From assembly GCA_017620635.1 (NCBI GenBank), contig JAGAUV010000013.1, positions 1 through 63,198 on the forward strand: a stretch of 63,198 bases of DNA. The letters run 5' to 3'. Made by a program: the position numbers and the translations under genes. Of this stretch, positions 24,622 to 27,759 are shown one piece after another; the stretch's first letter is position 1; each line of letters starts with the position of its first letter. This DNA comes from Muribaculaceae bacterium (GTDB lineage Bacteria; Bacteroidota; Bacteroidia; Bacteroidales; Muribaculaceae). The notes below the pieces were generated by a model. It was not told the DNA's origin, did not search any database, and saw only the letters and a list, made by a program, of their open reading frames with translations.

Positions 24622-25833
<1,212 letters not shown>

Positions 25834-25856: not shown

Positions 25857-25894
25857 AAAAAAAGAGAGCCACCGGAATCTTACCCGATGGCTCT
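25857..25894 (-). terminator. Intrinsic terminator of the trpB attenuator
   Basis: Minus-strand AGAGCCATCGG (25894-25884) pairs with CCGGTGGCTCT (25875-25865) over 11 base pairs, with one G-U pair and an 8-base loop, followed by a C and then seven T residues (25863-25857). It lies in the trpB leader, 24 bases before the trpB ATG, so it would stop transcription before the gene. Nine bases of its 5' arm (GCCATCGGG, 25891-25883) can instead pair with CTCGATGGC in the leader ORF (25969-25961), an antiterminator. A small hairpin (CTATAA-CTGA-TTATAG, 25908-25893) directly precedes it. Confidence 0.85.
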
Positions 25895-25940
25895 ATAATC
25901 AGTTATAGCTTTTCAGATTGAAGCGGAATGACATCCGAGT

Positions 25941-26021
25941 CTAACCGCACAGGCAAAGCCGCCATCGAGTAGTATCGTCGTGGCGCCACCAATAACGGTT
26001 GATAGTCGGATTGTTTGCCAT
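25941..26021 (-). CDS. trpL: trp leader peptide (26 residues)
   Basis: A short ORF, ATG at 26021 and TAG at 25943-25941, encodes 26 residues starting MANNPTINRYWWRHDD. It has adjacent Trp codons at positions 11-12 and a third at 20, three of 26 residues, which is very unlikely by chance just upstream of trpB. The promoter box ends 29 bases upstream, and a strong terminator lies between it and trpB. The segment around codons 18-21 is complementary to the terminator 5' arm. Inferred action: a ribosome stalled at the WW codons leaves that segment free to form an antiterminator; one that reads through covers it and the terminator forms. Confidence 0.85.
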   Translation of the reverse strand: MANNPTINRYWWRHDDTTRWRLCLCG

Positions 26022-26049
26022 ATCTACAATAGTTTTATCGTTTCTGTCG

Positions 26050-26080
26050 CAAATTTATGTCAATTATTCCGTTTCACAAA
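26050..26080 (-). promoter_or_regulatory. Promoter of the trp leader and trpB
   Basis: On the minus strand: TTTG (26080-26077), 19 bases, TAAATTTG (26057-26050). Transcription would start near 26043, about 20 bases before the leader-peptide ATG. Confidence 0.65.
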
Positions 26081-26115: not shown

Positions 26116-27759
26116 TTATTTTACAGCGAGCGAATCGGGCTGCACAAAGTAAGTCTTGCGATAGTTGTAGTCCTCGGCATCGTAGATCTTTGTGAGGCGT
26201 TTAAGGCGCTCGAAGAAAGCGTCGTAGTCCTTTGGCGCTTTCGACCACTGTACCTCGGCCAGAGCAGCGACACGCGGCATCTCCATATACTCGGCCTGAC
26301 GGTAGTTGGGTATATGCTCTGTCCACAGATTTGCCTGAACGCCTATAATATGGGCAGCCTCTCCGGGTGTGAACGAGTCAGGGATCGGTTCGTAGCTGTA
26401 AACTTTCTCGACAGTGAGCGGATCGCCCCATGTAGCGGCTCTTGGCTCGGAAGGGTCGTCGCTCTGCCGGAAGTCGAAATACATGAACTGGTTCGGAGTC
26501 ATGATTGCGTCGTGTCCGGCTTTTGCAGCAGCAATGCCACCCTCGGTACCGCGCCACGACATTATCACAGTGCTTGTGTCGACGCCGCCTTCGAGAATCT
26601 CATCCCATCCGATAGCCTTGCGGCCCTTGGCTGCGAGGTGGTCGGCGACGTGTTTCATGACATGCGACTGAAGCTTCTGCTCGGCGGTGCTGTGCTCGTC
26701 GGTCCTGAGGCCAAGCTCTTTGATCTTGGCCTGGCATTTCGGGCATTCCGTCCAACGCACTTTGGGGCACTCATCGCCGCCTATATGGATGTACTCCGAG
26801 GGGAAGAGCTCAACGACCTGATCCATCACATCGTCGAGGAAGGCGTATACGCTGTCGTTTCCGGCGCAAAGGACATCATCGCTGATACCCCATCGCTGCC
26901 ATACCTCGTAAGGACCGCCCGTGCAGCCAAGCTCGGGATAACTTGCCAGAGCGGCCAGCATGTGTCCGGGAAGGTCGATCTCGGGAATAACGGTAATATG
27001 CCTGTCGGCGGCGTACTTCACGATATCGCGCACTTCATCGGCGGTGTAGTAACCGCCATAAGGAATCGAATCGGAGTCCTGAGTGTGACCGATCACTGTG
27101 CCGGCCCTTTTGGAGCCTATCTCGGTAAGCTCGGGACGACCCTTTATCTCAAGTCGCCAGCCCTGGTCTTCGGTAAGGTGCCAGTGCATGCGGTTGATGT
27201 TATGCAAAGCTATCATGTCGATGAACATCTTTACCGAGTCGGGGGCGAAGAAGTGTCGAGCGGTGTCGAAGTGAGCACCGCGATAAGCGAAACGCGGCGC
27301 GTCGGCGATAGTTCCGGCCGGATAGAGTACCTCGAAGTTACCGGCACCGGGAATGGCCTTGCGCAGAGTCTGGAGACCATAGAAAGTAGCGGCCGGAGTG
27401 ACGCCGTCGACCACGATGCTGTCGGCATTGACGGTAATCACATAGGCATCGGAGTTGCCGTTGACGATATCGGCGCCGAGGCGGATAAAGTCCTTGCCGG
27501 GAGCGACTGTCACGATCTCGGGCTCGAAGCCGACAAGAGTCTTTACGTATCCGGCGAAAAGACGTGCGTTGACCTGCTGAGCGCTGTCAGAAGCCACGAT
27601 ACGTGTGTCGGGACCGAAGCGAAAAGCCTGAGCCTGCGGCTCTACCGTGATACTTTCGGGCAGGGGAACCACTGCATAATCCGCCTCAACAAGCTCACGG
27701 CTGCTGCACGATACTGCGAGCACAGCCATGGCCGCAATTAACAATTTACTTATTTTCAT
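26116..27759 (-). CDS. GH20 beta-N-acetylhexosaminidase lipoprotein
   Basis: A 547-residue lipoprotein (lipobox AVSC, Cys18). A GH20 N-terminal domain (VVPLPESITVEPQ) precedes the GH20 barrel with RGAHFDTARHFF, MHWHLTEDQGWRLEI, PEIDLPGHMLAALASYPEL and the catalytic Asp-Glu pair in HIGGDECPK (D329, E330); the Asp polarises the substrate acetamido group. It releases terminal GlcNAc or GalNAc from glycoproteins or chitooligosaccharides. Divergent from the GH109 gene, with which it could act on host O-glycans. Confidence 0.93.
   Translation of the reverse strand: MKISKLLIAAMAVLAVSCSSRELVEADYAVVPLPESITVEPQAQAFRFGPDTRIVASDSAQQVNARLFAGYVKTLVGFEPEIVTVAPGKDFIRLGADIVNGNSDAYVITVNADSIVVDGVTPAATFYGLQTLRKAIPGAGNFEVLYPAGTIADAPRFAYRGAHFDTARHFFAPDSVKMFIDMIALHNINRMHWHLTEDQGWRLEIKGRPELTEIGSKRAGTVIGHTQDSDSIPYGGYYTADEVRDIVKYAADRHITVIPEIDLPGHMLAALASYPELGCTGGPYEVWQRWGISDDVLCAGNDSVYAFLDDVMDQVVELFPSEYIHIGGDECPKVRWTECPKCQAKIKELGLRTDEHSTAEQKLQSHVMKHVADHLAAKGRKAIGWDEILEGGVDTSTVIMSWRGTEGGIAAAKAGHDAIMTPNQFMYFDFRQSDDPSEPRAATWGDPLTVEKVYSYEPIPDSFTPGEAAHIIGVQANLWTEHIPNYRQAEYMEMPRVAALAEVQWSKAPKDYDAFFERLKRLTKIYDAEDYNYRKTYFVQPDSLAVK

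Follow-up and report, generated by a model that had tools for sequence, protein, structure and literature searches.

Leader-peptide attenuation is a textbook mechanism of Proteobacteria. In the trp operon of Escherichia coli, the leader trpL (Rfam Trp_leader, which we take to be one of the families of the Rfam library) carries tandem Trp codons and four segments that form the mutually exclusive helices 1:2, 2:3, and 3:4, and an intrinsic terminator precedes the first gene. All of these features are shared by the element described here, which is located upstream of a trpB gene in a stretch of 63,198 nucleotides of DNA from a Muribaculaceae bacterium (contig JAGAUV010000013.1; hereafter, the window). 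Unlike trpL, this element is found in Bacteroidota, is preceded by a promoter of the Bacteroidota type, whose consensus is a box of the TTTG-N19 type, and heads trpB rather than trpE, with a single putative salvage gene as its target. A further difference is that an Rfam scan of the window gave no match at the gathering score, T-box models included; hence, the element is not filed under any Rfam family.

Beyond Proteobacteria, Trp leader attenuators have been described in the actinobacteria Corynebacterium glutamicum and Streptomyces venezuelae (cited in PMC4833913, as excerpted). The element of the window would share with them Trp-concentration-dependent attenuation before trp genes, but it belongs to another phylum and precedes another target gene. 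In the excerpted text, the authors of a 2010 survey knew of no demonstrated case beyond Proteobacteria and Actinobacteria that preceded their own from Firmicutes (PMC2965389), and an excerpt of the Bacteroides thetaiotaomicron transcriptome study mentions leader-like ORFs in long 5′ UTRs that were to be validated (PMC7366714). Indole salvage by TrpB was shown in Bifidobacterium (PMC11085991); there, as proposed here, Trp is formed from outside indole, and the excerpted text names no attenuator. The trpRBA operon of Chlamydia trachomatis also serves to obtain Trp from outside indole; however, according to excerpted accounts, it keeps trpA and is regulated by TrpR and YtgR. Partial Trp pathways have been listed that comprise TrpAB or more, none of them, in the excerpted part of the source, consisting of TrpB alone (PMC9026213). 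No report of the present element was found in the literature, and Lopatovskaya et al. 2010 may hold predictions of Bacteroidetes trp leaders. The class of mechanism has precedents; what looks new is its phylum, its lone target together with a matching change of the enzyme, and a second arm design.

We consider it very probable that the element is a classical ribosome-mediated attenuator, tuned to charged tRNA-Trp, that acts on a stand-alone TrpB in a bacterium lacking the other steps of the Trp pathway. Control of a lone trpB by leader Trp codons had been proposed in an initial annotation of the window and is supported by conservation, by covariation of the exclusive helices, by the position of the arm, and by genome content. 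To these computed observations are added the anatomy of the locus itself, the lack of partner genes among the matches, and the loss of TrpA-facing residues. The features of the locus are as follows.

26050 to 26080, minus strand: promoter-like box TTTG-N19-TAAATTTG, read from the sequence (boxes at 26080-26077 and 26057-26050)
25941 to 26021, minus strand: leader peptide ORF of 26 codons and a stop, sequence MANNPTINRYWWRHDDTTRWRLCLCG, with Trp at 11, 12, and 20 (ATG at 26021, stop at 25943-25941)
25986 to 25991, minus strand: tandem Trp codons 11-12, where stalling is presumed, read directly
25978 to 25984, minus strand: segment 1, the protector GCCACGA, which binds the arm as long as the tandem Trp codons are free of a stalled ribosome
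25961 to 25970, minus strand: segment 2, the antiterminator arm ACTCGATGGC at codons 18-21, which forms 10 pairs with segment 3
25883 to 25894, minus strand: segment 3, the terminator 5′ arm, partner of either segment 2 or segment 4
25865 to 25876, minus strand: segment 4, the terminator 3′ arm of the 12-bp hairpin
25857 to 25863, minus strand: terminator T-run, read directly
24622 to 25833, minus strand: trpB (TrpB1), TIGR00263 with E 2.1e-176, the product being one of the lone-TrpB clade described below

The leader ORF was confirmed to the base, and the promoter-like box lies where it had been placed, its end being 29 nt ahead of the leader ATG. For the terminator, described earlier as an 11-bp hairpin with a T-run 24 bases before trpB, the location was right but the length was not: the hairpin (25894-25865) folds as 12 bp with -20.6 kcal/mol, and the T-run ends at 25857, 24 nt ahead of trpB. 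The complementarity of codons 18-21 to the terminator 5′ arm is also present, with CTCGATGGC (25969-25961) facing GCCATCGGG (25891-25883) in eight Watson-Crick pairs and one G-U pair, and the helix grows to 10 pairs via A25970-U25882. The 210-nt leader of the window has a more stable fold than 200 of 200 dinucleotide shuffles (z -4.25). Judged in the window only, the arm-terminator pairing (p = 0.013, 300 dinucleotide shuffles) is modest alone, and the case is therefore carried by comparative data.

The initial annotation had held that stalling at codons 11-12 exposes codons 18-21, which the folding agrees with, and had overlooked the protector helix. This helix joins 25984-25978 with 25968-25961; in the absence of a ribosome, its pair probabilities reach 0.84 and the mean P(1:2) is 0.76-0.86. 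It completes the classical 1:2 / 2:3 / 3:4 layout. The ribosome was assumed to cover positions -14 to +16 around the P site, which, with the first Trp codon in the A site, puts the leading edge at +7 after the two Trp codons (WW). For a leader folded with these positions masked and ending short of the terminator 3′ arm, the probability of the antiterminator was 0.12 without a ribosome, 1.00 with the ribosome at either W11 or W12, and 0 with it at W20.

From this layout, the following course of events can be proposed, in which we infer the stalling, the read-through, the termination at plentiful Trp, and the use of indole as a substrate. In Trp-starved cells, the leader ribosome would halt at codons 11-12 and mask the protector, and the arm, lying just past the leading edge of the ribosome, would pair with the terminator 5′ arm. 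The antiterminator formed in this way would block the terminator, and trpB would be transcribed. In Trp-replete cells, the ribosome would move on and cover or pass the arm, the protector-arm hairpin would re-form, and the terminator would end transcription before trpB. The TrpB product would couple imported indole to serine; the enzyme would probably be made only at Trp shortage, with Trp then being obtained from indole.

The model is least secure where the ribosome of Trp-replete cells reaches the leader stop. With a ribosome at the stop codon of the window, helix 1:2 is predicted to form (P 0.90) as long as transcription of the terminator 5′ arm is unfinished. Once that arm is made, the equilibrium favours the antiterminator (P 0.94-1.00, and 1.00 with the upstream edge of the ribosome set to 14 nt), and its probability drops to 0.05 only with an upstream edge of at least 18 nt. 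Termination with the ribosome at the stop thus calls for kinetics, for release, or for a larger footprint. The complete terminator, once present, dominates the equilibrium in all states tried (P 0.86-0.90), so the switch must be kinetic, that is, dependent on the order of synthesis. The earlier statement that reading through hides codons 18-21 thus gives only part of the picture. If the ribosome extends 14 nt upstream, then, on halting at the leader stop, it shields half of the arm or more in 22 of 43 family leaders, to which the window does not belong, and a smaller part in 21 of 43, a point of difference from E. coli trpL.

An even draw from a larger group supplied 198 family genomes for comparison, the window's own among them. 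They contain 64 full-length TrpB1 genes (fragmentary matches in genomes G149 and G085 were left out), and a WW leader was found by script ahead of 56 of them. Outside the scripted set, a WW leader is readable by eye at locus L145, the sequence of which contains N letters; L131 has a candidate leader with one Trp and a mis-picked trpB start; and L149 is truncated by the contig end, a look-alike leader lying on another contig of the same genome, G093. No leader is visible upstream of trpB in 5 of the 64 genes (L137, L138, L162, L165, and L169). At two of these, the close relatives L137 and L138, the fetched downstream DNA holds trpB and trpE only. The box TAnnTTTG occurs within the 75 nt that precede the leader ATG in 50/56 leaders, against 3.0 expected from mononucleotide shuffles, and is preceded at 18-21 nt by TT(T)G in 42/56. 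The residues that flank WW differ between leaders, WW itself being the selection criterion.

To locate the antiterminator arm, the first 60 nt beyond WW were matched against the terminator 5′ arm and the ungapped helix of greatest weight was taken, with 300 shuffles for each of 55 leaders; L158 was dropped as the script had picked a false terminator, and a GCCGC/GCGGC hairpin with a T-run is readable there by eye. The pairing reached p<0.05 in 44/55 leaders and p<0.01 in 23/55, with 11/55 missing p<0.05. In 48 leaders, the arm is centred 16-24 nt beyond WW, where uniform placing of the 55 expects about 8.5. In 55/55, the arm starts at least 8 nt after WW and thus past the assumed +7 edge of the ribosome; this would be weak evidence alone, because the searched stretch is mostly past +7, and the clustering near +20 is stronger.

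Arms vary between leaders (CGATGGC, CGACGGC, ATCGGCGG, TGCGGCA, GCGACGCC, TTGCCGAG, and others), and terminators vary to match. Across all 55 leaders, the pairing of an arm with its own terminator scored 20.5, compared to 15.6 after re-pairing, and none of 20,000 re-pairings was as good. The same outcome (0/20,000) was obtained with one leader for each of the 26 arm types (20.1 v 13.8). Leaders thus show WW codons ahead of 56/64 trpB genes together with covarying arm-terminator stems, as the alignment proposed in the initial annotation was meant to reveal. The own terminator is the best or tied partner in just 11/55 leaders and 9/26 arm types because the arms resemble each other. For the protector helix, 43 of the 55 leaders were used, chosen by the rule p<0.05 and an arm start of 10-19, which favours good cases; in these, protector-arm pairing scored 14.4 v 12.4 (0/20,000) and, by type (18), 13.4 v 11.2 (3/20,000). 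Support for 1:2 is weaker than that for 2:3. That the arm is free at WW in 43/43 of these leaders is true by construction of the preselection, and the positions in all 55 were used instead.

A Trp codon inside the antiterminator arm had been pointed out as a special feature of the window, and it turned out to be incidental: TGG stands within the arm in frame in 23/55 leaders only, in another frame in 5/55, and is absent in 22/55, while in 5/55 the arm begins at or past the leader stop. The arm is conserved as RNA, not as peptide. The in-frame arm codon was also considered as a second sensor; this is unsupported, since arms with TGG out of frame, with no TGG at all, or past the stop are retained all the same. 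A strict consensus pattern run over the 198 genomes gave 7 matches, of which five lie just upstream of trpB and one is the G093 look-alike off its trpB contig. The seventh looks like G+C-rich sequence without leader features. The pattern missed the window and most known leaders, and it therefore says little on other target genes.

The TrpB of the window scores 586.7 bits against TIGR00263 (curated cut-off 392.45), and its gene is flanked by genes with weak glycosidase-family matches. Of the Trp enzymes other than TrpB, the genome-wide search covered TrpA, TrpC, and the Chorismate_bind family (TrpE and kin). In the window's genome (assembly 88.6% complete), TrpA and TrpC/IGPS were absent from the matches, and the single chorismate-binding protein fits best as isochorismate synthase, below the curated cut-off. 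It is possible that a trp cluster lies elsewhere in this incomplete genome; the changes on the TrpA face argue against it. In the family, TrpA was present in 53/198 genomes. Fourteen genomes with TrpB1 have no TrpA match, TrpC in 0/14, and no trpEGDCFA genes in the fetched 3.3-8.6 kb downstream, and the WW leader is kept in 14/14; the lone trpB of the window thus looks real and has counterparts in other genomes. Of the 50 trpB genes in genomes with TrpA, 48 are directly followed by trpE, and 42 have all of E-G-D-C-F-A within the fetched stretch, several others ending at contig ends. Within the window's genus, 14/16 genomes in the draw gave no TrpB1 match. No TrpB relative was confirmed in viral contigs, which give no sign of phage carriage there. 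At four lone-trpB loci of one genus code (L158, L163, L170, and L171), a similar gene on the opposite strand lies right after trpB, as if the locus had been inherited in place in that genus code. At another lone trpB, L174 (genome G126), the next gene lies 128 nt downstream on the same strand and matches tryptophan--tRNA ligase over a 70-residue piece, which gives the order attenuator-trpB-trpS.

In a tree of the 64 family TrpBs and four others, 12 of the 14 lone TrpBs form one clade (SH-aLRT 97). When the TrpA-facing columns and the longest branch (L174) were removed, the remaining 11/11 still formed one clade (99/98). The idea of 14 separate pathway losses was rejected, as 12 lone TrpBs are one clade and the tree requires three label changes in all. 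The other two, from G130 and G013, sit within operon-type groups, and these losses look recent. The 12-member clade spans eight genus codes with long branches; such a patchy lineage may reflect either common descent with frequent loss or exchange among genera.

The enzymes of this clade have changed in a particular region. Among 244 columns conserved at 85% or more in 50 operon-type TrpBs, 17 are lost in the clade (kept in 40% or fewer of its members; L154 and L126 were left out of the comparison). Fourteen of these 17 lie in two stretches of the window's TrpB, residues 180-203 and 300-307, to which 27 of the 244 columns belong (hypergeometric 6e-13, with columns treated as independent and the two stretches picked after the columns had been viewed). 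By motif spacing, we take residues 180, 183, 184, 188, and 301 to be Salmonella beta 167, 170, 171, 175, and 288, respectively. Arg188 (window numbering) is found in 50/50 operon-type TrpBs and lost in 12/12 of the clade; Lys180 is retained in the TrpB of the window. The active-site string HKIN is kept in 12/12 and GGGSN in 11/12, L174 lacking the latter. According to the excerpted text of PMC8187860, beta Asn171, Arg175, and Gln288 are alpha contacts, and Lys167 and Cys170 are linked with channel residues, mostly in simulations and for an alpha-subunit variant. The clustering of lost residues on the TrpA-facing surface suggests that the lone-clade enzymes work without TrpA on free indole and that the attenuator most likely gates indole salvage. 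The two lone TrpBs outside the clade, L154 and L126, carry Asn at residue 188 (beta Arg175), as does the TrpB of the window.

The hairpin might be a plain terminator of the upstream gene (26116-27759), with the Trp-rich ORF and the complementarity arising by chance. That gene does end at 26116 on the same strand, and the arm pairing within the window reaches just p=0.013; yet a promoter-like box separates it from the leader (such a box being found in 50/56 leaders), the leader, its spacing, and its pairing recur before 56/64 trpB genes, and trpE is next after 48 of the 50 trpB genes in genomes with TrpA, which makes this explanation barely credible. Sensing of Trp by another route, such as TnaC-like stalling on free Trp, a T-box, or an RNA-binding protein, is in our view very unlikely. 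Although the class is left unassigned by any library, with no Rfam model at the gathering score, tandem Trp codons are followed in most leaders by an arm centred about 20 nt beyond them, the remaining peptide is variable, against the expectation for a stalling peptide, and the window has no T-box match.

It is also conceivable that the attenuator is real but a decaying relic, a useless switch left on a lone trpB by recent pathway loss. The two lone cases within operon-type groups (G130 and G013), which look recent, and the 14/16 genomes of the window's genus without a TrpB1 match speak for such decay. The 12 other lone TrpBs, however, make up one lineage of eight genus codes and long branches, with WW and the active-site string HKIN kept in 12/12. 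In the 11 of their leaders that are testable, moreover, pairing is maintained while the arms diversify (own 21.3 v 15.7 re-paired, 0/20,000), and we find the relic explanation quite unlikely.

The ribosome-mediated attenuator preferred here for Muribaculaceae has counterparts in other families. In a wider survey of 80 named loci (the best 80 of 110), a WW leader with a terminator was found by script at 23, which are 23 of the 40 Bacteroidales loci; none was found at the six loci of Prevotellaceae or at the 40 non-Bacteroidales loci of these best 80 (Flavobacteriales, Chitinophagales, Cytophagales, Marinilabiliales, Saprospirales, Sphingobacteriales, and unassigned). As only ATG starts were considered, at least one leader with a GTG start escaped the search; this one, at a Parabacteroides trpB (L069), has three Trp codons and apparently begins with GTG, as read by eye.

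The arm of the other Bacteroidales was characterized in 20 loci (L038, L045, L048, L049, L051-L054, L056-L058, L060, L064-L068, L073, L084, and L094); L032, L033, and L107, being members of the window's family, and loci before L034 were left out. In 19/20, the arm begins 15-22 nt past WW; in L052, this distance is 30 nt. The partner differs: in Muribaculaceae, it is the terminator 5′ arm in 53/55 leaders, whereas in these loci the best partner is the loop or 3′ side of the terminator in 20/20 (by a whole-hairpin search that had no shuffle control), typically ACTCACGA. Targeting of the loop or 3′ side would block the hairpin by pseudoknot-like capture, not by the classical swap. A single Muribaculaceae arm rule for all Bacteroidales was rejected, since a search restricted to the 5′ arm gave only short matches outside the family and the whole-hairpin search pointed to the loop or 3′ side.

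We see an even chance that both parts of a broader picture hold, namely that Muribaculaceae contain an old line of stand-alone TrpBs, which gave up the TrpA-contact surface and retained the attenuator as a starvation-triggered indole scavenger, and that Bacteroidales have two attenuator designs with similar ribosome geometry. If true, control kept on a single salvage enzyme after pathway loss would show what selection values in these gut bacteria, here the catching of indole, a neighbour's product, at Trp shortage, and the order would offer two natural designs of one switch for comparison. For the second design, the re-pairing test gave 322/20,000, a weak result since the arms are alike; at L058 and L094, matched changes occur on both sides of the helix, from TCGTGAG/CTCACGA to GTCGTAAG/CTTRCGRC.
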